Positions 42,391 to 60,968 of a stretch of 64,000 bases of DNA are shown piece after piece. Under the pieces are notes generated by a model. The model did no database searches, was not told the origin of the DNA, and saw only the letters and a program-made list of their open reading frames with translations. Made by a program: the position numbers and the translations under genes. The stretch is from Pusillibacter faecalis (lineage in GTDB: Bacteria > Bacillota > Clostridia > Oscillospirales > Oscillospiraceae): positions 1,488,001 through 1,552,000 of the forward strand of contig NZ_AP023420.1 of the NCBI RefSeq assembly GCF_018408705.1, given 5' to 3'. Within the stretch, counting starts at the first letter, position 1. Each line of letters starts with the position of its first letter.

Positions 42391-43674
42391 TTAAAGCAGT
42401 CCTGGCAGGAAAGTGGACAACTGCGGGATTAAGACCAGGAAAAGTTGAGCGATCAGCAGTGCGATCACAGGCCCAATAATGGCTTTGCAAAGATTCTTCA
42501 CTGGAATCCCGGTAATGGATGCCGCAGTGTAGAGATTCGTGCCCACCGGCGGGGTAATAAAGCCAATAGCTAGGTTTGCCACCATAATGACACCAAAGTG
42601 AATGGGATCCACACCGACGCCCATCGCCACCGGCATCAGAATCGGTGCCAGGATAGTGATAGCGGACAGAGTCTCCATCAACATTCCGACAACCAATAGC
42701 AGGATATTCAGCAGCAACATAATCATCCACTTGCTGTTAGTGATGGAAAGGATTGCAGCTGCAAGGGCTTCTGGCACATTCTGAATGGCCAAAGCCCGGC
42801 CCAGAACAGTGGCTGCCGCCACGATAATTAGGATCGGTGCGTTGAGTCCAGCAGCACGCAACAGGATGCCCGGGAGCTGTTTGATAGTGACCGTCCGGTA
42901 GATGAACAGGGACACGATCAAGGCATACACGCAAGCTACTGCGGCGGCTTCTGTGGCGGTAAAGAGTCCGCTATAAATACCACCTAAAATCACCACTGGC
43001 GTCATGAGCGCCCAGAAGCCATCCTTGATGCTCTCAAAAATCCCCATTGTCTCTTGCTGGCAATGGATCTTCACCGGATGCCGCTTACAATAAATGTAAC
43101 AATAGATCATCAGGGCGGTACCGCACAAGACCCCTGGAATGATACCCGCCGTCAGCATGGAGTCAATACTGACCGTTCCTACCGTAATGGCAAACATCAC
43201 CATAGGTAGGCTGGGAGGGATTAAGACACCCAGGCCACCGGAGGCAGCTGTCACGCCAGTTACAAACGTCTTATCATATCCCTGTTCTTCCATGGCTGGG
43301 ATCATGATGCTACCTACCGCCGCAAATGTAGCCTGGCCGGAGCCGGAGATAGCACCAAATAACATACAGGTGAGCACTGTTGCCATGGGGACGCCACCGG
43401 TGAATCTACCCATACAGGCATTGGCAAAATTGAACAGCTTTTTGGAAATACCGCCCTGTCCCATGATCTCACCGGCCAGGATAAAGAGAGGTACCGCCAG
43501 AACCGTGAAGGAATCCAGCGCCTGTACCATATTGCGGACAATGTAAGCCAAGGATACCACGCCGCCCATCAAGCTATTGGCAATCACACCCAAGCCAATG
43601 GAAGCCAGCACCGGGACGCCAATTGCCAGCAGACAGAAAAACACTAAAAACAGGAGCCCGACTGTAGCCGTCAT
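42391..43674 (-). CDS. dctM: TRAP transporter large permease DctM (system 1)
   Basis: This 427-residue membrane protein of about twelve helices has family motifs VPLFILAGEIMGQGGI, GSGQATFAAVGSIMIPAM, PPSLPMVMFA and GGIYSGLFTATEAAAVA. The start at 43674 overlaps the stop of dctQ (ATGA) and has GGAGG nine bases upstream. With DctQ and DctP it imports a carboxylate with sodium ions. It is the last gene of the long BMC cluster. Confidence 0.93.
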   Translation of the reverse strand: MTATVGLLFLVFFCLLAIGVPVLASIGLGVIANSLMGGVVSLAYIVRNMVQALDSFTVLAVPLFILAGEIMGQGGISKKLFNFANACMGRFTGGVPMATVLTCMLFGAISGSGQATFAAVGSIMIPAMEEQGYDKTFVTGVTAASGGLGVLIPPSLPMVMFAITVGTVSIDSMLTAGIIPGVLCGTALMIYCYIYCKRHPVKIHCQQETMGIFESIKDGFWALMTPVVILGGIYSGLFTATEAAAVACVYALIVSLFIYRTVTIKQLPGILLRAAGLNAPILIIVAAATVLGRALAIQNVPEALAAAILSITNSKWMIMLLLNILLLVVGMLMETLSAITILAPILMPVAMGVGVDPIHFGVIMVANLAIGFITPPVGTNLYTAASITGIPVKNLCKAIIGPVIALLIAQLFLVLIPQLSTFLPGLL

Positions 43675-44162
43675 TTCCATTCACCTCCCTTCTTTTTTGC
43701 AACGCTCTGGCACCACATCTTCTGCAAAACCCGGAAAGTCGTCAGCCCCATACCCACTGGGAGCGCTAGATAAATATACAACATGGGGATGTGCAGTACC
43801 GTGCTGTACTGCGGCATGGCCAAGAGATCAACACAGATCTGGATTCCCACTACCGTCATGACCACAGTGAACACCAGAAAGATGGCGTAAGAAATCACAC
43901 GGACTATGCCGCGACCCTTATGAATGGACGTTTCTAGGATATCGACACGGATATGGGTTCCTTTCTTCGCCGCAAAAGAACTCCCCAGAAATGTCATCCA
44001 GATCAACGTATAGCGGGAGGTTTCCTCTGTCCAAGGCATGGAGACTTTCAGCACGAGACGTGCGAAAACCTGCAGCGCTGTGGCAAACACAAAGTATGCC
44101 ACAAAACAGGAAAGTATCGCCTCTTCAAAGTAATGATCTAGATAATACAATACTTTCTTCAT
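43671..44162 (-). CDS. dctQ: TRAP transporter small permease DctQ (system 1)
   Basis: This 163-residue protein has four membrane helices and the family pattern PWTEETSRYTLIWMTFLG at about residues 42-59. It is translationally coupled to dctM. It bridges the binding protein and the large permease. Confidence 0.9.
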   Translation of the reverse strand: MKKVLYYLDHYFEEAILSCFVAYFVFATALQVFARLVLKVSMPWTEETSRYTLIWMTFLGSSFAAKKGTHIRVDILETSIHKGRGIVRVISYAIFLVFTVVMTVVGIQICVDLLAMPQYSTVLHIPMLYIYLALPVGMGLTTFRVLQKMWCQSVAKKKGGEWK

Positions 44163-44257
44163 TTACTTCCCTTTCTCAGCACAAAGAGGCGTAGCAAATG
44201 CAGTTTCTGCCATCTCGGTCTGCTCCGCCTCCTCCATTGAAACACACTCTCAGTACA

Positions 44258-45316
44258 TTAAGATACGGCCTTGATGGAATCCTTCAGTTCAGCGACAAGG
44301 TCAGCGCCAACATTGGTAGCAATGACATCTTCCGCACTGCCCATAAGGGCCTGAAACTCCGCCAGTTCTGCGTCGGTCAGCGTGATCACGGTCAAGCCGG
44401 CATCCTCCAGCGTGGTAATGTAATTTTCCTTCTGAGCCGCTGCTTCTTTGCGTTGGAACTCCACACCGGCGCGGATAGCATCCATCACAACCTGCTGATC
44501 CTCAGCAGAAAGGCTGTTGAACCATGCGGGGTTGCAGGTGGCCATGCCTACCTGGAAGATGTGATTGGTAAGGGTGATGTACTTCTGAACCTCATAGAAC
44601 TTCTGAGAAATCACCAGTTCCAAAGGGTTATCCTGGGCATCCACCGTGCCCTGAGACAAGGCTGTATAGAGCTCGCCGAAGGCGATGGCAGAGGGAATGG
44701 CACCCAGACTCTCCCAAATAGCGATGTGCAGATTGCTCTGCATCACACGCACTTTCATACCCTTCAAATCAGCAGGGGTATGAACTTCCTTGTTGGAACT
44801 CAACTCACGGTAGGTGCAACTCTCAAAATAGCCTAAGCCCTTGAGACCACATGCATTTTCCATGGAGTCAAGCATCTTAGTGCCGAAATCTCCATCCAAG
44901 ACTGCATAAGCGGTCTCCTCATTGGGAAACGCGAAGGGTAGAGAGAAAACTTCCAAATCCTGGTTGAAAGAGGTCAGGTTAGAGGTGGAGCAGGCGGACA
45001 TTTGAATGTCGCCGCCCTGAACCGCCTGGGCCAAGTCCACATCAGAGCCCAAGGTGCCGTTGGGGTAAATATTGCACTCAAAATTGCCGTTGGCTTCCAT
45101 GTAGTCAGCAGCTACTACCCAAGCCTTGTGCATGAGGGAGTCTTCTGTGCCCGCATGCGCAATCTTTACTTCAATTTTTTTCCCGGCATCATTCTCAGCT
45201 CCGGAAGAGGTATTAGAAGAGGGCGTATTGTTCTGACTACCGCAGGCAGTCAAAAGGCGTATGCTCATCATCGTGGCAAGTGCAAGCGAAATGGCCTTTT
45301 TCATTTTCTTTTTCAT
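44258..45316 (-). CDS. dctP: TRAP transporter substrate-binding lipoprotein DctP (system 1)
   Basis: This 352-residue lipoprotein has a signal peptide ending LLTACGS and the DctP fold. The fold includes the conserved carboxylate-binding Arg region MKVRVMQSNLHIAIWESLGA and the TVDAQDNPLELV segment. The start at 45316 follows AAGGGAGG. The ligand is expected to be an organic acid. The gene begins 48 bases behind the hydroxyacid dehydrogenase gene, so it probably sits on the same transcript. Confidence 0.92.
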   Translation of the reverse strand: MKKKMKKAISLALATMMSIRLLTACGSQNNTPSSNTSSGAENDAGKKIEVKIAHAGTEDSLMHKAWVVAADYMEANGNFECNIYPNGTLGSDVDLAQAVQGGDIQMSACSTSNLTSFNQDLEVFSLPFAFPNEETAYAVLDGDFGTKMLDSMENACGLKGLGYFESCTYRELSSNKEVHTPADLKGMKVRVMQSNLHIAIWESLGAIPSAIAFGELYTALSQGTVDAQDNPLELVISQKFYEVQKYITLTNHIFQVGMATCNPAWFNSLSAEDQQVVMDAIRAGVEFQRKEAAAQKENYITTLEDAGLTVITLTDAELAEFQALMGSAEDVIATNVGADLVAELKDSIKAVS

Positions 45317-45364
45317 ATTTGTCCTCCCTTTTTGTAACTGATACAAGCAGTTCAGTCAAAAAAC

Positions 45365-46351
45365 TTAAGTCTGAAACTCCTTCACGTCTCTGACCTTTGG
45401 GTTCACAATATTCACCGTCCACTTGCCGGACAGAACGTCCAGCGCCTGCCGCGTCAGCTTGTGGTGCAGATCGATCATCGCCTCTTCCGAATACATTGCC
45501 ACATGCGGCGTATAAATTAGGTTCTGAATCTGGTGGGCAGGATGCTTAGGGGGCAGAGGCTCGCCTTCAATGACATCCAGGCCAGCGCCACCAATCGTTC
45601 CCTCCCGTAGCGCCGTCAGTAAATCATCAGTATTGATGATGGCTCCGCGGGAAACATTCACGATCACAGAGTCCTTCTTCATCTGCTTTAGTTCTTTCAT
45701 GCCAATCATGTGATAAGTGCCTGGATTGAGTACCGTGTTGATGGAGACGATGTCAGAGTTGCGCAGGACTTCTTCAAGCGTGCTACAAAGGCGGATACCA
45801 TCCATCTGGATCTCCTTGAGGAAAGGATCGTACACCAGTATCTCCATACCCATGCCCCGAACCATCTTAGCCTGCTCCCGGGCGATACGACCGAAACCGA
45901 TCTGGCCAAACACCTGATCAGACAGACGGTGTACGATATGGCCTTCTCCCTGTCCGTAGGCGCCGGCCCTTCCCCGGGCCACGAAATCCAGCAAGTGCTT
46001 TTTCAGCGTTAGAGCCAGTAGGAAGGATTGGGACGCCACCTCATACGCACAGTAGTCTGGCACGTTGCACACAGGAATCCCGCGCTCTGTCGCAGCGTCT
46101 AAATCCACAGAATCGTAGCCGATGCCGCACCGACCGATGAACTTCAGCTTAGGCAATGCCTCAATCACTCGGCGAGACATTGGGACTGCCACCACCATGA
46201 CTGCGTCAGCGTCCTGTGCCCCGGCGATAATCTCATCCTCCGTGCCCCAGTCATGAAATTCAATCTCCATGCCCGCCTTTTCAAAGGCTTCCTGTTCAAT
46301 CTTCTTCGTTTCAGGGCCCAGCCACTGCTGATCCACAAAATGAATCTTCAT
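45365..46351 (-). CDS. D-2-hydroxyacid dehydrogenase (copy 1)
   Basis: This 328-residue NAD(P)-dependent enzyme has the nucleotide-binding motif in slightly altered form (GQIGFGRIAREQA, with Ala for the last Gly). It also has the catalytic Arg in NVSRGAIINTDDL, a Glu downstream and the catalytic His in TPHVAMYSEEA. Family members interconvert 2-oxo acids and D-2-hydroxy acids, for example glyoxylate and glycolate or hydroxypyruvate and glycerate. AAGGAGAG precedes the ATG. It has a second, diverged copy at the other end of the BMC genes. Confidence 0.88.
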   Translation of the reverse strand: MKIHFVDQQWLGPETKKIEQEAFEKAGMEIEFHDWGTEDEIIAGAQDADAVMVVAVPMSRRVIEALPKLKFIGRCGIGYDSVDLDAATERGIPVCNVPDYCAYEVASQSFLLALTLKKHLLDFVARGRAGAYGQGEGHIVHRLSDQVFGQIGFGRIAREQAKMVRGMGMEILVYDPFLKEIQMDGIRLCSTLEEVLRNSDIVSINTVLNPGTYHMIGMKELKQMKKDSVIVNVSRGAIINTDDLLTALREGTIGGAGLDVIEGEPLPPKHPAHQIQNLIYTPHVAMYSEEAMIDLHHKLTRQALDVLSGKWTVNIVNPKVRDVKEFQT

Positions 46352-46469
46352 AATCAGCTCTCCTTTATATGCTCAGGCGCACAAAAACTCTCCGTTAGCG
46401 GGTAGAACCGCTACGGTACATGTTTGCGTGCTTACCTGAACGTTTCCTCGCATGCTGTTGTTTGAAACC

Positions 46470-47369
46470 TTACTCCTGGCAAAGTTTCTGGAGTCTTGCG
46501 TAACGGACGTCGGTCAGCTGCTGAAGTCCCTCGATATCCTCGTCAGTCAGGTGACGGAACTTTTTAAACCGGGTCACGAACTCCCTCACGGGTTTCGGAT
46601 TCTTTACGACGACAGACATGGAGAACTTGCCGTTTTCCACCTCATAGAGCGGGGCGAAGTTCGTCTCGATAGCCAAGCGGGCCACCTCGATACTTTCGTC
46701 GGACTTACAGCCCCAGCCGGTGACGCAGGGATTGTAAACATGTAGATACGCAAGGCCGTTATCCACCTGCATGGCCTTCTCCAGCTTCTTAACCATATCC
46801 GGGATGTAAGCAGGGCTCATGGTGGCCATATAGGGGATGTCATGCATGGCCATGATCATGGGAAAATCCTTCTTGTTCTGTTTCTTGCCGCCGTGGCCGT
46901 CGATGACAGGCGTAGTGGAAGTCCATGCGCCCTTGGAGGTGGAGCCGCTACGCTGATAGCCAGTGTTCATATAGCCCTCGTTATCGTAGCAGATATAGAT
47001 CAGCTTGTCTCCACGTTCCGCCGCGCCGGAGAGGCACTGCATACCGGCGTCCACAGAGGCACCATCGCCAGCGAAGGCGACCACGTTGACATGGCGGCCA
47101 ATGTGTTCATAGTGCAGCTTAATGCCAGCCAGCATGGATGCCACATTGTCCAGCAGCGGGAAAAACACCGGAGTTTTGGCACCGGACTGCTTGTCCCAAC
47201 CCACAACGCCGACACCGCCCATACACCCGGGAGGGATCGCAAAGATCGTGTTGGGCCCCAGAACCTTCATGCAGGTGCGCAGAGTCAGCTCGATGTTGCA
47301 GCCAACGCAGGCGGAGATACCAGGAGAAATCTGGTCCTCATAAGTTGCCAGTTTATCAATGACATTCAT
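46470..47369 (-). CDS. porB: 2-Oxoacid:ferredoxin oxidoreductase beta subunit (pyruvate type)
   Basis: This 299-residue thiamine-diphosphate subunit has an N-terminal Cys pair (ACVGCNIEL) and later Cys residues for an iron-sulfur cluster. It also has GDGASVDAGMQCLSGAAERG with YDNEGYMNTG for TPP, and NPCVTGWGC near the C-terminus, a pattern usual in pyruvate oxidoreductases. It oxidises a 2-oxo acid with CoA to acyl-CoA, CO2 and reduced ferredoxin. It is the last of four clustered subunits. Confidence 0.9.
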   Translation of the reverse strand: MNVIDKLATYEDQISPGISACVGCNIELTLRTCMKVLGPNTIFAIPPGCMGGVGVVGWDKQSGAKTPVFFPLLDNVASMLAGIKLHYEHIGRHVNVVAFAGDGASVDAGMQCLSGAAERGDKLIYICYDNEGYMNTGYQRSGSTSKGAWTSTTPVIDGHGGKKQNKKDFPMIMAMHDIPYMATMSPAYIPDMVKKLEKAMQVDNGLAYLHVYNPCVTGWGCKSDESIEVARLAIETNFAPLYEVENGKFSMSVVVKNPKPVREFVTRFKKFRHLTDEDIEGLQQLTDVRYARLQKLCQE

Positions 47370-47386
47370 GGTAGTTCCCCCCTTCT

Positions 47387-48577
47387 TCAGATACCCATGT
47401 CCTTCCGGTTCAGCCAGATTGTCGGATGACACTCAGTCTTACCGGCTTGTTCAACAATCATCTTGATGGCACAGTCAATGTGTTTTCCGGTCACATCCTC
47501 GCCGCCCAGACCGGCAATAAAGGCAATGTTCGGAACGAAGCTGTTGGCACGGTACATGGCCGCGCAAACCTCTTCGTAGGTGATGCCGGTGTTCCAGCCG
47601 AAGGACACGTTGCGATCAATGACACCATAGGCCTTTCTGCCTGCCAGAACCGTCGCCACCTGCTCAGCCGGGAAGGGACGGATCATGCGCAGTTTCAGAA
47701 GACCAATCTTGATGCCGTTGCGGCGGGCCTCATCCACGCGATCCTTAGCAACGCCCACCATGGAGCCCATTGTCACAAGGATGTAATCCGCATCCTCACA
47801 GCGGTACGCCTCCACCGCACCGCCATAGGAACGGCCGAACTTCTTGCCATATTCCTTGTCAAGCTTCTCAAAGAGCTTCAGCGCGTTCTGCTGGGCCATC
47901 ATGTGCTTCATGCGGTACTCGGTCAGGAGGGCACCGGTAGTCAGCGGATCCACTGCCATGGGTTTCAGGGGATCCAGCAGAATGTGCTCCGGATGATATG
48001 TGGGCAGGAAAGCGTCCACCTGCTCCTGTTCTGGGATCTCTACCCGCTCGGACATATGGGAGAGGTAGAAGCCGTCGAAGCAGACGTTCACCGGCAGCAG
48101 AACGTTCTTGTCTTCCGCCATGCGGTAGGCCATGATCATGGTGTCCAAAATTTCCTGGTTGTCCTCCACATAGACCTGCAGCCAGCCAGCATCCCGCACG
48201 GTAAGAGAGTCTTGGGGACCACCCCACAGGGTCTGGGGGGATATCATTTCACGGTTGGCCACCGCCATCACGACAGGCAAACGCAGGGTGGACGCCCGGA
48301 AATAGGGCTCATACATTAGGGAAAGGCCCTGAGAAGCGCTGGCGGTAAAAACCCGGGAGCCAGCTAGAGATGCGCCCGTCACGACGCTCATGGCGGAAAG
48401 CTCGGACTCTACCTCGCTGACGGTGCTATGCAACTCACCGCCAGTCACGAAGTCCGCCAGATACTCCACAATGGGTGTCTGGGGTGTGATGGGGTACGCC
48501 GCAATGATATCAGGACGGCAAAGCTTAGCGCCGATGGCTGCCGCCATATTTCCGTTGATGACCTTAACAGTAGCCAT
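47387..48577 (-). CDS. porA: 2-Oxoacid:ferredoxin oxidoreductase alpha subunit
   Basis: This 396-residue subunit has the signature AAYPITPQTPIVEYLADF (about residues 26-43) and the SEVESELSAMSVVTGASLAG active-site segment, then domain II. The start MATVKVINGN overlaps the stop of the ferredoxin-like subunit. It forms the catalytic core with the beta subunit. Confidence 0.92.
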   Translation of the reverse strand: MATVKVINGNMAAAIGAKLCRPDIIAAYPITPQTPIVEYLADFVTGGELHSTVSEVESELSAMSVVTGASLAGSRVFTASASQGLSLMYEPYFRASTLRLPVVMAVANREMISPQTLWGGPQDSLTVRDAGWLQVYVEDNQEILDTMIMAYRMAEDKNVLLPVNVCFDGFYLSHMSERVEIPEQEQVDAFLPTYHPEHILLDPLKPMAVDPLTTGALLTEYRMKHMMAQQNALKLFEKLDKEYGKKFGRSYGGAVEAYRCEDADYILVTMGSMVGVAKDRVDEARRNGIKIGLLKLRMIRPFPAEQVATVLAGRKAYGVIDRNVSFGWNTGITYEEVCAAMYRANSFVPNIAFIAGLGGEDVTGKHIDCAIKMIVEQAGKTECHPTIWLNRKDMGI

Positions 48578-48849
48578 TATTTCTCCTCCTTCACCAGCTC
48601 CATCGCAATTGCCTTCTTCTTGCACTCGTGGGCGCAAATGCCACAGCCTTTGCAATAGTCGTAGTTGATCTCAAACGAGCCATCTGCCACCTTACGAACG
48701 GAGTTGACGGGACAGTACATGAGACAGGCGCCGCATTTGACACACTTGCTCTTATCCAGAACCGGCTTTCTGGTACGCCACTTGCCGGTATCCACAATCT
48801 TGAGTCCTTCCTTGCCAATAGGAACGATATACTCACTGATAAACTCCAT
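48577..48849 (-). CDS. porD: 2-Oxoacid:ferredoxin oxidoreductase delta subunit (2x 4Fe-4S)
   Basis: This 90-residue protein has two 4Fe-4S motifs, CVKCGACLMYCP and CKGCGICAHEC. It carries electrons from the core to external ferredoxin. The start at 48849 has GGGAGG seven bases upstream. The four-subunit arrangement (gamma, delta, alpha, beta) is the archaeal/thermophile-type enzyme rather than the single-chain PFOR common in Clostridia. Confidence 0.92.
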   Translation of the reverse strand: MEFISEYIVPIGKEGLKIVDTGKWRTRKPVLDKSKCVKCGACLMYCPVNSVRKVADGSFEINYDYCKGCGICAHECKKKAIAMELVKEEK

Positions 48850-48864
48850 GATGCCACCTCCCAA

Positions 48865-49410
48865 TCAGCTGAAGTCAAACAGTTTTACATCATTGTAGCC
48901 GCGTCGGAATGTTTCCACATTCTTTTCGCCAAAGAACTTGAGAACCACCTTTTCCAATTCCACCTTGTCGACCCAGCCAGTGGCCTTCACAAAAGCGCCC
49001 AGCATGATGGTGTTTGTGATGGGACGGCCCAGCATCTCCAAGGCGATAGTAGTGGCATCCAACCAGGCAACACGCTTGATATTAGGGCTTGTGATGAGGG
49101 ACTGTGCGTCAGAGACTTGAGTGTTCAGGACGGCGACGGAGTCTTCCTTCATGCCCTCAAAAACGGGTGCGGAGATTAGCAGGCTTGGGTCCAGGATTAG
49201 CGTGCAATCTGGGTTGTAAACTTGGTTCTTCGCCCGGATTTTCTCGTTGCTCAGTCGCACGAAGGACGTAACAGGCGCACCTTGCCGTTCAAAGCCAAAC
49301 ATCGGCGTAGAGTTGCCGTACTTTCCGCTAGCCACGGTGGCATGGACTAACATCTCGCCGGCCTTAACGGTGCCAAGCCCACCAATACCGTGGAGCCTGA
49401 TCTCTTTCAT
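48865..49410 (-). CDS. porC: 2-Oxoacid:ferredoxin oxidoreductase gamma subunit
   Basis: This 181-residue subunit starts KEIRLHGIGGLGTVKAGEML, the gamma-domain signature, and has the typical GFERQGAPVTSFVRLS. It completes the four-subunit oxidoreductase. It follows the acyl-CoA synthetase beta gene by 25 bases. Confidence 0.92.
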   Translation of the reverse strand: MKEIRLHGIGGLGTVKAGEMLVHATVASGKYGNSTPMFGFERQGAPVTSFVRLSNEKIRAKNQVYNPDCTLILDPSLLISAPVFEGMKEDSVAVLNTQVSDAQSLITSPNIKRVAWLDATTIALEMLGRPITNTIMLGAFVKATGWVDKVELEKVVLKFFGEKNVETFRRGYNDVKLFDFS

Positions 49411-49435
49411 GTAGATTCCTCCTAACAATTGAATA

Positions 49436-50101
49436 TCAGTCCTCGAGAATGACCATCGCGTCCACCGCGGTGGCCTTCCGGTCACCGTACAGGATAAATG
49501 GGTTCACATCGACTTCCCGAATCTCCGGGTGCTTCTGGCAGAGTTTTGAGAGGTTGAGCAACGTCTCTACGATTTCCTCCCGATTATAGTGAACACCCCT
49601 CAGGCCCTTGCAGACCATTTTCAGCGGGGTTTCATCAATCATCTGTTCCGCATCCGCCCGGGATATGGGAACCATGCGCATGGAAACCGCCTTCAGAAGT
49701 TCCACGTAAATACCGCCGAGACCGACCATCAGCACCTGGCCGAACTGAGGATCGGTGCTCACGCCCAGCAGAACCTCAAAGCCCTTGGGCAGCATCTGCT
49801 GGACTACAACACCCTGGACTCTGGCAGAGGGGGCATTCTTGCGGGCGTTCTCCAGAATGGTCTCATAAGCCTCATGCATTCCTTCCACAGAATGGATTCC
49901 CAGGCAGACGCAGCCCAAATCGGTCTTGTGAAGGATATCGTCCGAAAGGACCTTCATCACCACCGGGAAACCCAGGTCTTCTGCCGTCTGCTTCAGCGTG
50001 GCATCTGAGCCCTCTGTCAGCACGACAGACTTCACCATGTTGATGCCAGCAGAACTCAGCAGCTCGGCGCTATCAAGTTCGTTGAGAGATTTCTTACCCA
50101 T
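49436..50101 (-). CDS. acdB: ADP-forming acyl-CoA (acetyl-CoA) synthetase beta subunit
   Basis: This 221-residue ATP-grasp protein has GFPVVMKVLSDDILHKTDLG near the N-terminus and REVDVNPFILY near the end. With the alpha subunit it converts acyl-CoA, ADP and phosphate to the free acid, CoA and ATP. The start MGKKSLNEL overlaps the end of the alpha gene by eight bases. Such split-subunit enzymes are typical of archaea and rarer in bacteria. Confidence 0.9.
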   Translation of the reverse strand: MGKKSLNELDSAELLSSAGINMVKSVVLTEGSDATLKQTAEDLGFPVVMKVLSDDILHKTDLGCVCLGIHSVEGMHEAYETILENARKNAPSARVQGVVVQQMLPKGFEVLLGVSTDPQFGQVLMVGLGGIYVELLKAVSMRMVPISRADAEQMIDETPLKMVCKGLRGVHYNREEIVETLLNLSKLCQKHPEIREVDVNPFILYGDRKATAVDAMVILED

Positions 50102-51539: not shown

Positions 51540-51575
51540 ATACTAAAAATCCTTTCTACTTGGGATGCGGGGATT

Positions 51576-53159: not shown

Positions 53160-54202
53160 TACAGCGGCTCTCCTATGGCAGAGCGCAGCGTCTTCATATC
53201 CTTGGAGATTATGCTGCCCATCAGCGCCAGCTCCGAATTGATGATAGTCATGTCAAAGCCCTTCTCGTACCAACCTTGGGCTGCCTGAAAATTCGCCGCG
53301 AAGATACCCAGCCGCTTTCCAGCGGCACGGGTTTTTTCCCGCATCATCATTACAGTGTTCACTAGCTTTGGGTTAGAATTCTGACCGAAAATCCCCATGT
53401 CCATGGAGAGATCACCCGGCCCAATGAAAAGCATGTCCACAAAGTCCGCTGCTTCCTTCAGAATAGCATCGATATTCTCCACTGCGGACACTGTCTCCAG
53501 CTGCACCACGATATTAGTGGTATAGTTTCGGTTCTGCTGATCGGCAAGAGCCCCGATGGTGTCTCCATACTCCCACAGGCGGGAGGGGCCTGCACCACGG
53601 CGACCAATGGGCGGATACTGGCTGTATTCCCGCAACCGCTTGATGTCATCTGCTGTTCGGATCTGGGGGATCAGAAGAGCATCCGCACCGATGTCCAGTG
53701 CGCCGCTGACATGCTCGTAGCTCAGTGTCGGCACCCGTACCATCCCGTATGTGACCCGGGATGCCTGCAGACCCTGCAGCATCTTTTGCAGCTCCGCCAA
53801 ATGGATGGCGTTATGCTCCGCGTCGATGCAGAGAAAGTCGAAGCCAAAGTGGCCTAGGTACTCGGTCATGATCGGATGCGGTGTTGCAACAAAGGTGCCG
53901 ATCAGCTTCCTGTCCGAACAGATTGCCTCCCGGAAGGGGGCACGGATGGGCTTGCTGAAGTCCGGCACGCCCGCGTTGCCGTACCCGCCGCTGGGTGATT
54001 GGGGTACCGAAGCTGGACCTGCTGGGGCGAAGATTGGCTGCGCCGCCATACCCGCGCCATTGTCAACAAGGACCTGCATTCCTAGCCGCTTCAGTTCATC
54101 CCGGGCGCAGTCCGTGAGCAGCGGTGCTTCCGGCAGGGTAATCACCTTTACGCCTCTCTGGTGATAGGCGCGGATATCGCTTTGAGTCAAGATATTCTGC
54201 AT
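53159..54202 (-). CDS. HpcH/HpaI-family aldolase with N-terminal BMC-associated extension
   Basis: Residues 1-45 (ILTQSDIRAYHQRGVKVITL, then LTDCARDELKRLGM) resemble the extension on the amidohydrolase, followed by a Pro/Ser/Gly linker. From about residue 85 comes the class II aldolase barrel with CIDAEHNAIHLAEL, a VQLETVSAVENID segment and DMLFIGPGDLSMDMG. The family cleaves 4-hydroxy-2-oxo acids into pyruvate (or oxaloacetate) and an aldehyde. That product type fits the downstream oxidoreductase and a shell that retains aldehydes. The start overlaps nothing; the stop abuts the amidohydrolase start. Confidence 0.87.
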   Translation of the reverse strand: MQNILTQSDIRAYHQRGVKVITLPEAPLLTDCARDELKRLGMQVLVDNGAGMAAQPIFAPAGPASVPQSPSGGYGNAGVPDFSKPIRAPFREAICSDRKLIGTFVATPHPIMTEYLGHFGFDFLCIDAEHNAIHLAELQKMLQGLQASRVTYGMVRVPTLSYEHVSGALDIGADALLIPQIRTADDIKRLREYSQYPPIGRRGAGPSRLWEYGDTIGALADQQNRNYTTNIVVQLETVSAVENIDAILKEAADFVDMLFIGPGDLSMDMGIFGQNSNPKLVNTVMMMREKTRAAGKRLGIFAANFQAAQGWYEKGFDMTIINSELALMGSIISKDMKTLRSAIGEPL

Positions 54203-54219
54203 AGCGGCCCCTCACCACC

Positions 54220-54480
54220 TCAATAGAGATTTTCCAGGCTGGCATCCGGCTTTGCAATAATATTGGTGTTGACAACCTTTCCGATCCGGTTCACAGCCTC
54301 CTCCGCTGCGTTGACCGCAGTGCGGACCGCCCCGATTTCGCCCTTGATGATTACGGCGATCATCGCCTTGCCAGTGTTTTCTTTGCCAACGACCTGAACC
54401 TCCGCAGCCTTTAACGCCGCGTCGGCGGCCTCCACGGCGGGCACCAGGCCAACAACCTCAATATAACCGTAAGCATTCAT
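54220..54480 (-). CDS. BMC-H shell protein 1
   Basis: This 86-residue single BMC domain is typical of the hexameric shell tile: YGYIEVVGLVPAVEAADAAL, then VIIKGEIGAVRTAVNAA. It is the third of three shell genes in line, and its pore-loop region (KPDASLENLY end) differs from the others. Length and pattern are those of canonical PduA/EutM-type tiles. Confidence 0.95.
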   Translation of the reverse strand: MNAYGYIEVVGLVPAVEAADAALKAAEVQVVGKENTGKAMIAVIIKGEIGAVRTAVNAAEEAVNRIGKVVNTNIIAKPDASLENLY

Positions 54481-54492
54481 TTCGCAACCTCC

Positions 54493-54771
54493 TCAATCAG
54501 CGATGTTCAGGCTCAGAACCTTTTCGGCGCCTTCGCTGGGCAGCGCGATTACATGTGCGCAATGCACCTGGCCCACAGAGCGGGCCGCTTCCGTTCCGGC
54601 ATCCACCGCAGTACGCACTGCGGCGATATCGCCCTTCACAGCGACGGTCACATAGCCGCCTCCGATGACTTCCGTTCCTGCCAGCTCAACCTTTGCCGCC
54701 TTCGTCATGGTGTCGGCGGCGGCGATTGCGGGAACATACCCTACAACTTCAATAAAACCCCAAGGCTGCAT
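54493..54771 (-). CDS. BMC-H shell protein 2
   Basis: This 92-residue BMC domain reads MQPWGFIEVVGYVPAIAAAD then VAVKGDIAAVRTAVDAGTEA. The start at 54771 has GGAGAGAGG upstream. It differs from tile 1 by its C-terminal extension (EGAEKVLSLNIAD). Confidence 0.95.
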   Translation of the reverse strand: MQPWGFIEVVGYVPAIAAADTMTKAAKVELAGTEVIGGGYVTVAVKGDIAAVRTAVDAGTEAARSVGQVHCAHVIALPSEGAEKVLSLNIAD

Positions 54772-54789
54772 GATCCTCTCTCCTTTCAA

Positions 54790-55062
54790 TCATTCCTCAA
54801 TTCCAATCATCCGGACCAAGCTCTTGGCAGGATGCGCGACCGCAAGGCAGGCTTCCAGGCAGCCTGTCTGGTTGGCGGCCGCCGCGCCAGCATCCAGCGC
54901 CGTATGAATGGCGCTAATCTCCCCCTTGATGACTATGGTGACTAGGCCTGCGCCGACCCACACCTTTTTCACGATCTCCACATCTGCCGCCTTAGCCATC
55001 GTGTCGGCCACCTGAAAGGCGGGTACATAGCCCATAGTTTCAATAAAGCCCAAAGAATACAT
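54790..55062 (-). CDS. BMC-H shell protein 3
   Basis: This 90-residue BMC domain reads LGFIETMGYVPAFQVADTMA then IVIKGEISAIHTALDAGAAA. Three different hexamer tiles and no tandem-domain (BMC-T) protein are seen in the window, so the shell would be built from BMC-H and vertices only, unless BMC-T genes lie elsewhere. Confidence 0.95.
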   Translation of the reverse strand: MYSLGFIETMGYVPAFQVADTMAKAADVEIVKKVWVGAGLVTIVIKGEISAIHTALDAGAAAANQTGCLEACLAVAHPAKSLVRMIGIEE

Positions 55063-55081
55063 GTTGGAACTCCTTCCTGAT

Positions 55082-55321
55082 TTATCCTTCCGAGATCATG
55101 TCAACAATCCCGATAATATAGAGGTCGATGTACCCCTGTGCGCCGCCGTACTGTCTGCTCACCAGAACCTCAGACCCCACGCCGGCGCCCACAAGATCCA
55201 CCGCCACGACCCGCTCAAGCTTTCCGGTCTCCTCGGTTTGGCAAAGAAGCATCCTCTTCCCTACCAGGCTCTCTTCCTTCTGCTGCGCAGCCACATTTCC
55301 GATCACTTTACAAAGAATCAT
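55082..55321 (-). CDS. EutN/CcmL-type BMC vertex protein (pentamer)
   Basis: This 79-residue protein starts MILCKVIGNVAAQQKEESLV and has the family pattern AVDLVGAGVGSEVLV near residues 40-55, ending IGIVDMISEG. Pentamers of this family close the vertices of microcompartment shells. GAAGGAGG precedes the ATG. Its presence with three BMC-H genes makes a compartment very likely. Confidence 0.94.
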   Translation of the reverse strand: MILCKVIGNVAAQQKEESLVGKRMLLCQTEETGKLERVVAVDLVGAGVGSEVLVSRQYGGAQGYIDLYIIGIVDMISEG

Positions 55322-55358
55322 GCTTTTTCCTCCTTCCGGCGCCTGTTTCCGCCTTCTC

Positions 55359-56336
55359 TCAAAGCCCCAGCTGCTCCCGGTTGAAGAGGAACTGTGGCAT
55401 CGTCCCCTCCAGAACCGCAATGGCCTGATCCACCATGTGCATCCGCAGGGTCTCAAACGCCTTGCTAGAGTAATGAGCGGAGTGGGGTGTCAGGATCACC
55501 GAGTCTATTGTCCGCAGTGGGTGATCCAACGCCAAGGGTTCGCTCTCATGTGTGTCCAGGCCTGCGCCCTGCAAATCCCCGATGCGGATGGCATCCGCTA
55601 GGGCGTAAGTGTCGATCAGCGCACCTCTGGATACGTTGACAATGAAGGAATTCTTCTTCATCCTCCGGAAGGCGGCAGCGTCAAACATGTGCCGGGTCTC
55701 ATCTGTCAGGTGGCAGTGGACGGAAATTACATCAGACTGCTCCAGTAGCTCGTTAAAACTGACCTTCTCCGCGCCGCGGGCCGCGATGGTTGCCGCGTCC
55801 AGGAAGGGATCAAAGGCAATGACCCGGCAGCGGAAGGGCTTCAGGAAACGAATCAGATACCGGGCGATATTCCCACAGCCCGCAAGGCCCACAGTGATCC
55901 CCGTCAAGTTCCTGGCCTCATATCCCACACTCCATTTCCACTCACCGCTCCGCACAGAGCGATCCAGCAGAGACGTCTTGCGGAACAGATCCAGGATTAA
56001 GGCAAACGCGTGGGTCGCCACCTCCTCCAGACAGTAGCCGGTATCGTTGCAGACCCTCACGCCCTGCTCCGTGGCAGCCGGAACATCAATAGAATCCACG
56101 CCGATGCCGAATCGGCATAACCCCTTCAGCTTTGGCAGGCCGTTAATGACCCGCTTTGTGTACGGGGCCGCCACCAGGATGTGTATGTCGCAGTCCTGCA
56201 TCTTCTCCAGGACATCATCCTCCGTGTAGCAATTAAATGTCTCAAACTCGATGCCGACTTTCTGAAATCGCTCCTTTTCATAGGCAAAGTCGATCCCAAG
56301 ACGGAAGGCATCCGTAAATCCTACCTTAAAGCCCAT
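55359..56336 (-). CDS. D-2-hydroxyacid dehydrogenase (copy 2)
   Basis: This 325-residue enzyme has the modified nucleotide motif GLAGCGNIARYL, catalytic Arg in NVSRGALIDTYAL and His in LTPHSAHYSSKAF. Its N-terminus (GFKVGFTDAFRLGIDFAYEK) differs clearly from copy 1, so the two are not a recent duplication. It may reduce the aldehyde-acid or oxo acid made in the compartment, or oxidise an incoming hydroxy acid. AAGGAG precedes the ATG at 56336. Confidence 0.88.
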   Translation of the reverse strand: MGFKVGFTDAFRLGIDFAYEKERFQKVGIEFETFNCYTEDDVLEKMQDCDIHILVAAPYTKRVINGLPKLKGLCRFGIGVDSIDVPAATEQGVRVCNDTGYCLEEVATHAFALILDLFRKTSLLDRSVRSGEWKWSVGYEARNLTGITVGLAGCGNIARYLIRFLKPFRCRVIAFDPFLDAATIAARGAEKVSFNELLEQSDVISVHCHLTDETRHMFDAAAFRRMKKNSFIVNVSRGALIDTYALADAIRIGDLQGAGLDTHESEPLALDHPLRTIDSVILTPHSAHYSSKAFETLRMHMVDQAIAVLEGTMPQFLFNREQLGL

Positions 56337-56384
56337 AAAATCTCCTTCCATTCTTTCAGTAAAACGCTTTCCTGCCGTGCCCAA

Positions 56385-57656
56385 TCAGCCAGGCAGCAGA
56401 CAAAGCGAGATTCCGGGAATATACGTGACCATCAGCACCGCTATAATCATCAGAAGCATCGGGACGACAATTTTTTTGGAGATTTCCACCACAGAGAGTC
56501 CCGTCAGTCCACTGGCAACATAAAGGTTCATACCGATGGGCGGTGTGATGAAGCCTACTGCCAGATTGACGGTCATAAGGCAGCCGAACTGGATGCCGCT
56601 CATGCCAAGGCCCGTCATAATGGGGTACAGCACCGGCGCGAAGATCAGGATCGCGGCCACAGTGTCCATCAACGCACCCACAATCAGCAGGAACAGATTG
56701 ACCAGCAGGAAAATCATGATCTTGTTGGAGCTGATGCTCAGGATCAGATTGGCGATGACCTCAGGGGCTCGTTCCATGGTGAGGATCTTGCCCAGAACGG
56801 TGGCGGACGCACAGACGATCATCAGGGGCCCCATGGAGGCCGCGGTACTCTTGAAGAGCGCCGCCAGCTCCGCGAGCTTAATAGTTTTCGTGACAAAGAG
56901 ACAGATGATGAGACCGTAGAGTACGCTGATAGCAGCTGCCTCCGTGGGAGTGAACAAGCCGCTGTAGATGCCGCCCAAAATGATGACGGGCATCAAAATG
57001 GCCCACTTGCTGTCATTTAGGACGCGGCCAAAGCTTTTTTCCTCCACTTCCCATTTGAGCGTCGGCCTGCACTTTTTACAGTACGTGTAGCAGTACACGC
57101 ACAGCAGCAGGCCCACCAGAATGCCGGGGATGATGCCCGCAATGAAGAGGTCGCTGACAGACTCACCCGTCACTACGCCGTACATCACCATGGGGATGCT
57201 AGGCGGAATCATGACACCTAGTGCGCCTGCGGAGGCCAGCAGGCCGGTGGCCCACTTCCGGTCATATCCGATATCCGCCAGCATGGGGATCATGAGACCG
57301 CCGATGGCCGCCACCGTAGCAGGCGCGGAACCAGACACCGCGCCGAAAAACAGGCAGGAGAGTACTGCCGCCATGGCGTGTCCGCCGGGCAGTTTGCCCA
57401 CCAGCTTATGCGCCAAGTCAAAGAGCTGCCGCGCAATACCGCCCTTCGTCATGAGATCGCCGGAGAGCATAAAGAGGGGAACCGCCAATAGCGGGAAGCT
57501 GTCCAGCGCGGAGAAGAACGCAGAGATAAAGAAACTCGCTTGCATCCCGCCAGTTAGGAGGATATACCCGACGCAAACCACCAGGATCGCGATACCGATG
57601 GGCATGGACAACCCCAGCAGAACAAAAAATGCCAGAAATAACCATCCAATAATCAT
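56385..57656 (-). CDS. dctM: TRAP transporter large permease DctM (system 2)
   Basis: This 423-residue multi-spanning permease has VPLFMLSGDLMTKGGIA, GSAPATVAAIGGLMIPML, PPSIPMVMYG and GGIYSGLFTPTEAAAIS. It overlaps dctQ by four bases. It is distinct from system 1 in sequence, so the two importers probably take different acids or have different affinities. Confidence 0.93.
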   Translation of the reverse strand: MIIGWLFLAFFVLLGLSMPIGIAILVVCVGYILLTGGMQASFFISAFFSALDSFPLLAVPLFMLSGDLMTKGGIARQLFDLAHKLVGKLPGGHAMAAVLSCLFFGAVSGSAPATVAAIGGLMIPMLADIGYDRKWATGLLASAGALGVMIPPSIPMVMYGVVTGESVSDLFIAGIIPGILVGLLLCVYCYTYCKKCRPTLKWEVEEKSFGRVLNDSKWAILMPVIILGGIYSGLFTPTEAAAISVLYGLIICLFVTKTIKLAELAALFKSTAASMGPLMIVCASATVLGKILTMERAPEVIANLILSISSNKIMIFLLVNLFLLIVGALMDTVAAILIFAPVLYPIMTGLGMSGIQFGCLMTVNLAVGFITPPIGMNLYVASGLTGLSVVEISKKIVVPMLLMIIAVLMVTYIPGISLCLLPG

Positions 57657-58126
57657 GTTTCACCCTCCTTGCTCCTTGCCAGCTTTCGAACGTACTTTTC
57701 CACCAGCCGGACTATGGTCAAGGCGCTGAACAGCGGCAGAATCAGATACACGATCCACATAGGGATCTTGAGTCCCACGCTCAGGGTACCGTATCGCGCT
57801 ACTTTCATGAGATAATCCAAGGATATCCGGAACATGTAGCCCATCAGAAGCAGAAACACCGCGTCCAGTGCCACATCCAGTACGGTGATGGCTTTCTTCG
57901 GCAGTACGTTCTCAATGAGGTTCACGTTCAGATGCGTTCCACGCTTGATGCCGTTAGCAATGCCCAGGAACGCGATCCAGATGAATGCGTAGCGGCAGAG
58001 TTCCTCTGTCCACGGCGCGGAAAAATGAAGGATGAACCTGTTTAGCACCTGAAAGGTCGCGCAAATGAAAATGACCGCCATCAGGATACCGCCCAAGGCT
58101 TCCTCAAAAGTATCCTTTTTCTTCAC
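57653..58126 (-). CDS. dctQ: TRAP transporter small permease DctQ (system 2)
   Basis: This 157-residue, four-helix protein has the PWTEELCRYAFIWIAFLG motif. It is coupled to dctM by overlap and separated from dctP by 101 bases that contain a hairpin. Confidence 0.9.
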   Translation of the reverse strand: MKKKDTFEEALGGILMAVIFICATFQVLNRFILHFSAPWTEELCRYAFIWIAFLGIANGIKRGTHLNVNLIENVLPKKAITVLDVALDAVFLLLMGYMFRISLDYLMKVARYGTLSVGLKIPMWIVYLILPLFSALTIVRLVEKYVRKLARSKEGET

Positions 58127-58182
58127 GTTTGTGTCTCCTTAAAAATCAATTTCACGCGTAAATTTCCTGCTATAATTCTCAG

Positions 58183-58212
58183 CAACGGCACGCAAATTAT
58201 TTGCGGCCGTTG
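58183..58212 (-). other. Hairpin between dctP and dctQ of system 2
   Basis: CAACGG/CCGTTG extended by GCAA/TTGC over small internal loops forms a stable stem without a T-run. It probably protects the dctP part of the message so that the binding protein is made in excess. Confidence 0.5.
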
Positions 58213-58227
58213 TGAGAATGTCAGATA

Positions 58228-59262
58228 TTATGCGAAGAAGTCTTCCACCTGGGTGACGATGTCGCCGATTTCCTGCTTCATACTGTCATAGACAGGCTGG
58301 CAGGCCTCACGCATTTCCTGGATCATGTCGTCAGAGGCGCTAGTAACGACCATGCCGGCCGCTGTGGCGGTCTCCACCGCGCCGGACTCTTCCTCGTTGA
58401 CCATATCCCGGGCAGCTACCAGAGTATCCGCCGCGCACTCATCCATGACCTTCTGCAAATCCTCCGGCATGGAATCATAGATGTCCTGGCTCATAACCAG
58501 CGGGCATACCGTCAGGATGTGGTGTGTGTCCGTCGCATACTTCTGCACCTCGTAGAACTTCTGGGAGATAATGTTGCCCCAGGGATTCTCCTGGCCGTCC
58601 ACCGTGTGTTGCTGTAGGGCGGTAAAGAGCTCGGAGAAGGAGATCACGGTGGGCACCGCATCCAGGCACTCCCAGGTCTGCACCTGATAGGTGCTGCTCA
58701 TGGTACGTATCTTCATACCCTTCAGGTCAGCCATGGACTGGACTTCCTTCACATCGTTGGTCAGCAGCCGGTAGCCGTAGTCCATATAGCCGAAGCAGTG
58801 GAAACCGTAATTGCCGAGGCTCTCTGCCAGCTTGCCGGCCAGATCACTCTCAAAAAAGCGGTAGGCGTCCTCTTTGGTCGGGAACAGGAAGGGCAGATCG
58901 AAGACTGCCTGATTGGAGTCAAACTGGGTATAGTTGGCACTAGACACCAGGGTCATGCCGATGGTTCCCATCTGAACACCTTCCACACTGCCAACGTCGT
59001 TAGCCATGGTGCCGTTGGGATACACGTCCAGCTCCACACGGCCACCACTTCTTTCTTTCACAAGATCCGCCATGTAATAGATGGCCTTGTTGCAGGCGGA
59101 ATCATCCGAGGTGGTCACAGAGACAGAGATTACATACTCCGGCGCGGAAACAGTGTTTCCGGTGTTGCCGGCAGTACCAGGGGTAGCTGTGGTGGAGTCC
59201 CTGCATGCCGCTAGGGAGAACACCATGAGCATTGTCATGGCCGCCGCTATAAACTTTTTCAT
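58228..59262 (-). CDS. dctP: TRAP transporter substrate-binding lipoprotein DctP (system 2)
   Basis: This 344-residue lipoprotein has signal peptide MKKFIAAAMTMLMVFSLAAC, a Thr/Gly/Asn linker and the DctP fold, with the carboxylate-binding region MKIRTMSSTYQVQTWECLDA and TVDGQENPWGNII. The start at 59262 follows AAGGAGAAG. It is the first gene of the leftward BMC cluster and faces the Crp-type regulator. Confidence 0.92.
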   Translation of the reverse strand: MKKFIAAAMTMLMVFSLAACRDSTTATPGTAGNTGNTVSAPEYVISVSVTTSDDSACNKAIYYMADLVKERSGGRVELDVYPNGTMANDVGSVEGVQMGTIGMTLVSSANYTQFDSNQAVFDLPFLFPTKEDAYRFFESDLAGKLAESLGNYGFHCFGYMDYGYRLLTNDVKEVQSMADLKGMKIRTMSSTYQVQTWECLDAVPTVISFSELFTALQQHTVDGQENPWGNIISQKFYEVQKYATDTHHILTVCPLVMSQDIYDSMPEDLQKVMDECAADTLVAARDMVNEEESGAVETATAAGMVVTSASDDMIQEMREACQPVYDSMKQEIGDIVTQVEDFFA

Positions 59263-59626
59263 AATTGCTTCTCCTTCTCTTGGTTTTTCGCAGCCTAGCT
59301 TCTCTCTTCTACTCCCGGCCACGTTTATATTCCTTATATTGCACCAAACGGCAAAGCCGTATCTATGACCGCCGTCACAAGTATGTCCCAATCTTTACCT
59401 GGTTTGTTTTGTATAAAATGACGTATTTTTGCAAAGTGCGCAAATATTTTTTCTGTTTTTTAACAAAGGTTAGGAACTCTCAACTTCTTCCGCCTGAAGT
59501 TTATCTTGCGTTTTTTCGCATTTTCCATCATAATATAGTGAAAGTATTGTGGCCCCCTGTCTGGGGTAAACATTTCTGCTGCAGCCGTCTCCACGGCTCC
59601 CGCACAGCCCGCAGCACCTATAAATC
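59263..59626. promoter_or_regulatory. Divergent control region of the BMC cluster and its Crp-family regulator
   Basis: For the rightward regulator TTGCGT (59506-59511) and CATAAT (59529-59534) are 17 bases apart. Candidate operators are TTTGC-N7-GCAAA (59428-59444) and TGAC-N4-GTCA (59366-59377), both located between the two genes. A small hairpin ACGGC/GCCGT lies at 59348-59360. No leftward promoter near consensus was found; an activator-dependent promoter would explain that. The whole region is AT-rich. Confidence 0.5.
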
Positions 59627-60304
59627 TTGATTGGATTGGGGGAATCCTGCTTGCCGGACAACAAACTATATCCAAATCAGATTTTACAGCTTGTGCAGAA
59701 CCCAATCATTCAAAGCTACCACGCCGGAGACATGATCCTTCAGCAGGGGGACAAATGTCCTGAGATGTTTTTTATCATCGAAGGTTCTGTCCGCACTGTA
59801 CTCTTGACATGTCAGGGAGATGAGTTCCTGGTTTCCATCCATGGGCAGGGTGAGTTCATTTGCGAAGCAGCCTACATCACAAACCGGGGCTCCATTCTGT
59901 CCATCTACGCCATGGATGATGTCCGGTTGTTGAGCCTGTCCGACCATGCTTATCACGCGCTGCTAGCCAAGTATCCGGAAGTCAGCACCACCATCATGAT
60001 GAGCATTTCACAGAAGCTGGACATGGTAGTGGACAGGCTGGAGCGTTATGCCACCAGCGGGATTCCTCCCCGAATCGCCAGTATCCTGCTACTCTTCGCT
60101 GAAAAGTACGGCATCCCGACGTCGGAAGGCATCAAGATCAACTACCGGATGACCGACTCCGAACTGGGTGTCTATACCAACGCCAAGCGGGAATCCGTCA
60201 ACCGGACGCTGAAAAAGTTTCAGAATGAAGGGCTGATTCAGAAGGACAGAGAATTTCTCTATATACCTAACATTGAGGCATTAAAAAGACTTGCGGAAAA
60301 ATAA
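59627..60304 (+). CDS. Crp/Fnr-family transcriptional regulator
   Basis: This protein of about 225 residues has an N-terminal effector-binding beta-roll (YHAGDMILQQGDKCPEMFFI, then IEGSVRT), a dimer helix and a C-terminal helix-turn-helix with KRESVNRTLKKFQNEGLI. There are no N-terminal cysteines for an Fnr cluster. The start is uncertain: TTG 59627 has no clear ribosome-binding site, while TTG 59651 in the same frame has GGGGGA eight bases before it. It likely controls the divergent BMC cluster in response to a small molecule. Confidence 0.85.
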   Translation: MIGLGESCLPDNKLYPNQILQLVQNPIIQSYHAGDMILQQGDKCPEMFFIIEGSVRTVLLTCQGDEFLVSIHGQGEFICEAAYITNRGSILSIYAMDDVRLLSLSDHAYHALLAKYPEVSTTIMMSISQKLDMVVDRLERYATSGIPPRIASILLLFAEKYGIPTSEGIKINYRMTDSELGVYTNAKRESVNRTLKKFQNEGLIQKDREFLYIPNIEALKRLAEK

Positions 60305-60896: not shown

Positions 60897-60968
60897 CTCC
60901 GCGAAATAGTTGACCACTTCTTTGGGCCGTTTTCCGCCGGCCCGAGCCGTGACCCATGTGGGAAAAGG

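Follow-up and report, generated by a model that had tools for sequence, protein, structure and literature searches.

Most catabolic bacterial microcompartments (BMCs) are explained by one scheme, in which an aldehyde goes in and acyl-CoA and an alcohol come out. Loci with shell genes and no aldehyde dehydrogenase have been grouped as BUF, 'BMC of unknown function' (Axen 2014; Sutter 2021; PMC4207490, PMC8217296); their function is little known, and they have been suggested as a possible third kind of BMC (PMC4207490). We identified a BMC locus of this class in a 64,000-nucleotide stretch of the Pusillibacter faecalis genome (NZ_AP023420.1, positions 1,488,001 to 1,552,000), referred to below as the window. 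It combines shell genes with an HpcH/HpaI aldolase, a cyclic amidohydrolase, an ADP-forming acyl-CoA synthetase and a 2-oxoacid:ferredoxin oxidoreductase, and the aldolase and the amidohydrolase begin with a common module related to the shell-binding start of EutQ. Described types were compared using the available parts of published texts (PMC8217296, PMC4207490, PMC6620236, PMC8156839, PMC10266427, PMC12507026), and what is said of them below is limited to those parts.

By the published definition, the locus is a BUF locus: it has shell genes and a conserved enzyme set without aldehyde dehydrogenase, and the BUF loci of 2014 also hold amidohydrolases. BUF1/xanthine loci carry BMC-T, deaminases, a formiminotransferase and a decarboxylase or carboxy-lyase (PMC4207490, PMC6620236). 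BUF1/XAU (xanthine) was rejected as an assignment, with no BMC-T, deaminase, formiminotransferase, carboxy-lyase or xanthine dehydrogenase among the Pfam matches of the cluster. The ACI and PVM types resemble the window locus in having an aldolase as likely signature enzyme, although theirs belongs to PF00596 and not to PF03328, and ACI also shares the PF00389/PF02826 hydroxyacid dehydrogenase with the window cluster (PMC8217296). Both have an aldehyde dehydrogenase (in ACI at a satellite locus), whereas the window type has none in the locus. The MIC type has only the aldehyde dehydrogenase of the usual core enzymes, and the window locus lacks this one as well. The reductive uric-acid pathway (PMC12507026) includes ring opening by the hydantoinase-like HyuA and has pyruvate as end product, as proposed here; the term microcompartment does not occur in that paper. 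This pathway was rejected for the window cluster, whose Pfam matches include no xanthine dehydrogenase, YgfK-type protein, M20 peptidase or YgeX-type (PALP) protein. Literature searches for the gene set, confined to open-licence papers, listed no title or abstract beginning that describes it; the type may nonetheless have been published.

The cluster spans 17 kb (42391-59262) and consists of 20 genes on the minus strand, all open frames with analyst-chosen starts, which overlap or are separated by gaps of about 120 nt or less (Table 1). Tripartite ATP-independent periplasmic (TRAP) transporter set 2 and D-2-hydroxyacid dehydrogenase 2 come first, followed by BMC-P, three BMC-H genes, aldolase, amidohydrolase, synthetase alpha and beta, PorC, PorD, PorA, PorB, D-2-hydroxyacid dehydrogenase 1 and TRAP set 1. 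Above the Pfam cut-off are PF00936 (three genes, 67-80 bits), PF03319 (64 bits), HpcH_HpaI (106 bits), PF01979 (59 bits), ADP-forming CoA ligase alpha and beta, PorA/B/C/D, 2-Hacid_dh (twice) and two DctP/Q/M sets. The Pfam search thus located, on the minus strand, the three BMC-H genes and one EutN/CcmL gene that a first-pass annotation of the DNA had placed in a single leftward 17-kb cluster, and every enzyme family it had named beside them, with the TRAP importers, scored above cut-off. Promoter-like sites were not enriched in the region (8 vs 11.7 expected from shuffles), and terminator-like sites numbered 18 vs 16.2.

No aldehyde dehydrogenase was found in the cluster by PF00171. Queried with EutE and EutG of E. 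coli and with two host aldehyde dehydrogenases, tblastn gave no match over window positions 35001-64000, in agreement with the first-pass annotation. The set of aldehyde dehydrogenase, phosphotransacylase (PTAC) and alcohol dehydrogenase of the Pdu, Eut, glycyl-radical (GRM) and MUF types was not found at the locus (Fe-type alcohol dehydrogenase was not searched genome-wide). The annotation's claim that the locus has no cofactor-recycling enzyme was too strong, since the two D-2-hydroxyacid dehydrogenases, which presumably use NAD(P), could serve. It had further proposed looking for an aldehyde dehydrogenase beside the locus or elsewhere. The host genome has 15 PF00171 matches outside the cluster, several being paired fragments of a single gene and some lying in frames of EutE/PduP-like length; the nearest (C1:1567124) lies about 20 kb past the cluster end. 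One PduL-type PTAC is encoded about 1.16 Mb from the cluster.

The aldolase was used to scan 84,980 species genomes, an approach that detects close relatives only; it gave 60 pattern matches, of which seven were relatives (L034-L040; type A, together with the window). BMC-H, aldolase and amidohydrolase genes occur in the same order in 7/7, and the synthetase genes and the oxidoreductase follow this core in six (the L038 sequence stops within PorD). Amidohydrolase and synthetase genes are separated by an opposite-strand regulator gene in L035-L037 and by a BMC-P gene in L038-L040. BMC-P is upstream of the BMC-H genes in L035-L037, as in the window, and was not found on L034, a short contig. Identity to the window proteins is 56-65% for the aldolase and 56-61% for the amidohydrolase in the seven loci, and 78-89% for PorB in five. 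The grouping is more than chance, because the core block recurs in other genomes, and a decayed Pdu, Eut or GRM locus was rejected because the enzyme set is conserved in the seven diverged genomes in addition to the window. In trees, the type-A sequences form one group for the amidohydrolase (100/99) and synthetase alpha (98/99) and, weakly, for PorA (55/83); some branches are long, and L034 and L038 lack some of the genes.

Type A is rare within the samples searched. The aldolase matched in 47 of 300 genomes from the window's family (E up to 1e-20), but with the exception of the gene in the window itself, none of these matches started before query residue 47 or exceeded 35% identity. Scans with the amidohydrolase gave 4/398 genomes in a phylum sample (E up to 1e-90), 3/397 in the family of G697 (E up to 1e-100) and 3/297 in the order of G702, the query genome being counted each time, and no non-query match in these three samples was of type A.

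Type A has a small set of shell genes. PF00936 matched only the three cluster BMC-H genes, all single-domain, in the whole host genome (about 98% complete), and PF03319 only the cluster BMC-P. A profile of BMC-T(dp), derived from the sister type described below, matched none of the eight type-A genomes, host included. For the relatives, whose assembly completeness is unstated, PF00936 gave three matches in five of the seven genomes, all inside the locus, and two in G696, where the contig ends within the locus. G699 has eight, three in its type-A locus and five on another contig (G699:C47:18087-22747), a second BMC gene group in which two PF00936 domains lie within one 184-residue frame; because they share it, this frame probably encodes a trimer-type protein. 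Orthologues of BMC-H paralogue 1 in six relatives have the pore loop WVGA or WIGA (L034 is cut before the gene), and those of paralogue 3 are 72-79% identical in seven relatives. Paralogue 3 (54220-54480) has an unusual pore loop, NTGKA or NTGAG, across all eight type-A loci. Three points of the first-pass annotation can be taken up here: the shared gene order it suggested seeking elsewhere was found, as a shell-aldolase-amidohydrolase core, in seven further genomes; no BMC-T was detected elsewhere in the host genome; and its view of an unusual core that may fall in a published unknown-core class agrees with the BUF definition and with an enzyme set kept in eight genomes.

The aldolase and the amidohydrolase both start with about 45 conserved residues and a variable Pro/Ala/Gly-rich linker, with the catalytic domain beginning at about residue 88. 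In a single hhalign comparison the two modules aligned with a probability of 97.9 (E 4e-13). A combined 21-row module profile matched residues 1-45 of E. coli EutQ (E 1.4e-6) and 1-45 of EutT (E 5e-5), but not ten other Eut proteins (best E 0.05); 60 shuffled copies of EutQ scored at most 20.5 vs 37.2 for real EutQ. Searches of whole genomes gave exactly two matches in 8/8 type-A genomes, at the aldolase and amidohydrolase genes. As the main matches are rows of the profile itself, the informative results are the near-absence of other matches and a match in another BMC locus. This extra match (E 3e-5) lies in G1155 (L103 7558-7698), within what by eye is a glycyl-radical-type BMC locus; a marginal one in G1370 (E 0.008) lies outside any locus seen. 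In Salmonella, residues 1-99 of EutQ suffice to target green fluorescent protein to Eut BMCs, the first two helices H1/H2 (residues 9-41) binding the shell and later helices binding cargo peptides, according to one study (PMC12487888). The module shares homology with H1/H2 and spans only this shell-binding part. EutQ resembles both enzymes in its roughly 45 homologous residues and linker but continues with the cargo-binding H3/H4 and a cupin, whereas here the module is fused straight to two metabolic enzymes. Given this homology with the part of EutQ that binds the shell, aldolase and amidohydrolase are predicted to be cargo, and direct anchoring of each to the shell is the simplest interpretation.

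The remaining amidohydrolase matches were five BMC loci of a sister type (type B; L055, L089-L092) and two loci without a shell match (L056, L057). In type B the amidohydrolase is 43-47% identical to that of the window, and PorCDAB and both synthetase genes are present in 5/5. The shell genes comprise BMC-P in 5/5, one (L055) or two BMC-H, and BMC-T(dp) in 5/5, from which the profile was built. In place of the aldolase, type B has a class-V pyridoxal phosphate (PLP) enzyme, SufS/kynureninase-like, which bears the EutQ-like module in 5/5 genomes and was identified by Pfam or NCBIfam in L055, L089 and L091 and by 72-74% identity in L090 and L092. The type-B amidohydrolase has no N-terminal module, unlike that of type A; by eye, its start looks like a short helical peptide, such as MGNDIFADYIRNLKQ in L089. 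An operon adjoining the type-B locus in L089 (16440-19677) and L090 contains one gene that is NCS1 permease-like, another with weak similarity to thiohydantoin desulfurase (60 of 440 bits) and a third that by eye is hydantoin-racemase-like but has no NCBIfam match. The catalogue text places 'BUF23', read as BUF2 plus BUF3, on the BMC-T(dp) tree in a clade 'MIC12/BUF23' without stating that every member has BMC-T(dp) (PMC8217296), and type A has none. Type A may equal an already named BUF type, and type B may be one of BUF2/BUF3.

L056 and L057 combine an amidohydrolase 42-44% identical to the window's with a 2-oxoacid oxidoreductase, without a shell match in the fetched stretch. Genes that by eye are molybdenum-hydroxylase-like adjoin them, and the module profile has no match in their genomes (G577 and G388). 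A free-standing heterocycle pathway is possible for these two loci.

Residues D127, H130, R156, E236 and D264 of the aldolase, aligned with 1dxe and 3qz6, are invariant in the eight sequences; we take them to be class II metal-ligand, base and substrate-arginine residues. Equally invariant are H143, H145, K227, H264, H320 and D389 of the amidohydrolase, presumably metal ligands in the dihydropyrimidinase pattern; its nearest solved structure by profile is the L-hydantoinase 1gkr. For oxidoreductase alpha and beta the closest solved relative is pyruvate:ferredoxin oxidoreductase 9bt4, and the alpha subunit, like pyruvate enzymes, has Thr in the YPITP motif, at a position occupied by Arg in oxalate oxidoreductase. 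On our assumption that this Thr/Arg position in YPITP/YPIRP marks the substrate, oxalate was rejected. An amidohydrolase resembling Xaa-Pro dipeptidase in L036, L037, L089 and L090 (304-314 bits of 500 needed), with a 31% identical copy in L055 and none found in the window, was not used as evidence.

The entry genes differ between the window and its relatives. The window has two sets of TRAP and D-2-hydroxyacid dehydrogenase genes, without homologues in the fetched stretches of the seven relatives. A HisC-like aminotransferase (54-77% identical to the L035 copy) adjoins the locus in 5/5 type-A relatives whose upstream sequence exceeds 3 kb (L035, L036, L037, L039, L040), L034 and L038 being too short to judge, and the relatives' entry genes include NhaC- or YfcC-type carriers. 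Dehydrogenase and aminotransferase both yield 2-oxo acids, which aldolase and oxidoreductase use; this points to a 2-oxo acid as common intermediate and is the main ground for the pathway proposed here.

On balance we favour the reading that the locus encodes a complete BMC module working without an encapsulated aldehyde dehydrogenase, with aldolase and amidohydrolase as shell-tied cargo. The shell would be built of the three BMC-H paralogues and BMC-P. After TRAP import of a 2-hydroxy acid, a D-2-hydroxyacid dehydrogenase would oxidise it, giving the 2-oxo acid that relatives would obtain by transamination. Inside, the amidohydrolase may open or release a cyclic amide, and the aldolase would cleave a 4-hydroxy-2-oxo acid to pyruvate and a reactive aldehyde that the shell retains. 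Pyruvate would exit and be converted to acetyl-CoA by the ferredoxin oxidoreductase, and the ADP-forming synthetase would yield acetate and ATP from it. The aldehyde might be reduced by a hydroxyacid dehydrogenase (e.g. glyoxylate to glycolate), regenerating NAD(P)+. This whole reading is built on gene content and sequence comparison. Substrates considered were 4-hydroxy-2-oxoglutarate from hydroxyproline or hydroxyglutamate, hydantoin-like ureides and cyclic dipeptides.

Several observations weigh against it. The amidohydrolase fits no listed NCBIfam equivalog (best 231 bits of 393 needed), so where it acts is a guess. For oxidoreductase alpha and beta, the top NCBIfam models are those of phenylglyoxylate dehydrogenase subunits (478 and 358 bits, in either case below the cut-off of 700), so the 2-oxo acid need not be pyruvate, and solved structures and NCBIfam models together give a mixed picture of the substrate. 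In L034 an opposite-strand gene, enolase-like by eye, follows the amidohydrolase in place of the synthetase. The fetched type-B stretches yielded no HpcH/HpaI aldolase, which means that the wider family can do without the aldolase step. BLASTP with the two window N-termini alone gave nothing, the homology of the modules being visible by profile methods only. With aldehyde dehydrogenases and a PduL encoded elsewhere in the host genome, an unlinked enzyme could join the compartment.

The second of these points fits a pathway for degradation of N-heterocycles, in which the amidohydrolase would be the signature enzyme, converting a cyclic amide to a 2-oxo acid or enamine used directly by oxidoreductase and synthetase, and the aldolase would have a side or detoxifying role. 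Both BMC types hold amidohydrolase, oxidoreductase and synthetase and differ in having either the aldolase or the PLP enzyme, the shell-less loci pair a related amidohydrolase with an oxidoreductase beside molybdenum-hydroxylase-like genes, and near type B lie the NCS1 permease-like and hydantoin-racemase-like genes of L089 and L090. Yet carbamoylase, ureidase and hydroxylase are not among the cluster Pfam matches, and the supposed side enzyme is kept in all eight type-A loci and bears the cargo module. We regard this pathway as unlikely, though a serious contender.

A classical aldehyde metabolosome, with aldehyde and alcohol dehydrogenases supplied from a satellite locus, would have a precedent in ACI (PMC8217296) and could draw on the frames of EutE/PduP-like length and the PduL of the host. 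We find it improbable: the genome has just two copies of the cargo module, on aldolase and amidohydrolase, no second site of shell genes (PF00936, PF03319) exists there, and tblastn with EutE, EutG and the two host aldehyde dehydrogenases likewise drew a blank across the stretches fetched for the seven relatives. That the shell is a non-functional remnant among ordinary organic-acid genes, as the broken look of the recombinase and relaxase on the carrier element might suggest, is hardly credible with 20/20 cluster genes open and the shell-enzyme block kept in genomes this diverged.

The carrier element extends from 35999 to 60901 (about 24.8 kb), has a repeat copy at each border and encloses the whole BMC cluster. 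Both borders have a direct repeat of a tRNA 3' end and a recombinase gene lies inside, as expected of an integrative element; the cluster looks to lie on a degenerate element at tRNA-Val, judged from these features, and was probably acquired horizontally. The GC content is 0.51-0.58 in the cluster, 0.60-0.68 in the left flank and 0.43-0.48 in the right flank. A 579-base piece with the tRNA array matched in 40/40 relatives searched, over most of its length in eight; the array is thus present there, and no clean empty site with a matching right flank was found in them. The sister species G1406 has two further repeat copies after the tRNA array and element DNA 73-86% similar to the island's left end and right edge; the BMC genes had no nucleotide match in its fetched stretches (the region between was not fetched whole). 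By eye, the AAA ATPase at the left end might be encoded by an OLD/AbiEii-type defence gene.

Table 1. Features of the BMC cluster and the surrounding island (window positions).
Feature	Position	Strand	Evidence and remarks
Left copy of 95-nt repeat, att-like: 3' part of tRNA-Val(cac) plus hairpin	35999..36093	+	direct repeat
AAA ATPase with long C-terminal part, island left end	36179-37807		PF13304/AAA_21
Tyrosine recombinase, two overlapping frames, appears disrupted	37946..38631	-	PF00589, 41.7 and 25.6 bits, second below cut-off 27.1
Short MobL-type relaxase frame, appears truncated	39392..39775	-	PF18555, positions 1-114 of 383
TRAP DctM1	42391..43680	-	PF06808
TRAP DctQ1	43671..44162	-	PF04290
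TRAP solute-binding protein DctP1	44258..45316	-	PF03480
D-2-hydroxyacid dehydrogenase 1	45365..46351	-	PF02826/PF00389
2-Oxoacid:ferredoxin oxidoreductase beta (thiamine diphosphate, TPP)	46470..47369	-	PF02775; closest solved relative 9bt4
2-Oxoacid:ferredoxin oxidoreductase alpha	47387..48577	-	PF01855/PF17147
2-Oxoacid:ferredoxin oxidoreductase delta (2x 4Fe-4S)	48577..48849	-	TIGR02179, above cut-off
2-Oxoacid:ferredoxin oxidoreductase gamma	48865..49410	-	TIGR02175, above cut-off
ADP-forming acyl-CoA synthetase beta (ATP-grasp)	49436..50101	-	PF13549, 225 bits
ADP-forming acyl-CoA synthetase alpha	50094..51539	-	PF13607/PF13380; TIGR02717 401 bits, below cut-off 567
Dihydropyrimidinase/hydantoinase-like amidohydrolase, N-terminal module residues 1-45 plus linker	51576..53159	-	catalytic part from ~88
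HpcH/HpaI class II aldolase, N-terminal module residues 1-46, linker ~47-87	53159..54202	-	PF03328 from residue 101; NCBIfam aldolase models from 87-90
BMC-H paralogue 3, pore loop NTGKA	54220..54480	-	PF00936
BMC-H paralogue 2, pore loop VIGGG	54493..54771	-	PF00936
BMC-H paralogue 1, pore loop WVGAG	54790..55062	-	PF00936
BMC-P vertex protein (EutN/CcmL)	55082..55321	-	PF03319, 64 bits
D-2-hydroxyacid dehydrogenase 2	55359..56336	-	PF02826/PF00389; homologue not found in relatives' fetched stretches
TRAP large membrane subunit DctM2	56385..57656	-	PF06808
TRAP small membrane subunit DctQ2	57653..58126	-	PF04290
TRAP solute-binding protein DctP2	58228..59262	-	PF03480, 279 bits
Crp/Fnr-family regulator, divergent from cluster	59627..60304	+	PF00027/PF13545
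Right copy of 95-nt repeat (94% identical)	60807..60901	+	direct repeat

The shared cargo module, the sister type B and the borders of the island are newly recognised here. We put forward tentatively, while leaning slightly against it, that type A represents a further mode of BMC: an island-borne organelle of aldolase and cyclic amidohydrolase without an internal CoA or aldehyde-oxidation step and without a BMC-T trimer in the locus, in which EutQ-type anchoring would replace encapsulation peptides or an adaptor, the product would exit as pyruvate or another 2-oxo acid, and entry enzymes (hydroxyacid dehydrogenase or aminotransferase) would be interchangeable. A module that anchors enzymes directly to the shell would, if real, be useful for loading shells. 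With two predicted cargo enzymes and shell genes for BMC-H and BMC-P only, type A would offer a clean case for testing what BUF-type organelles do.

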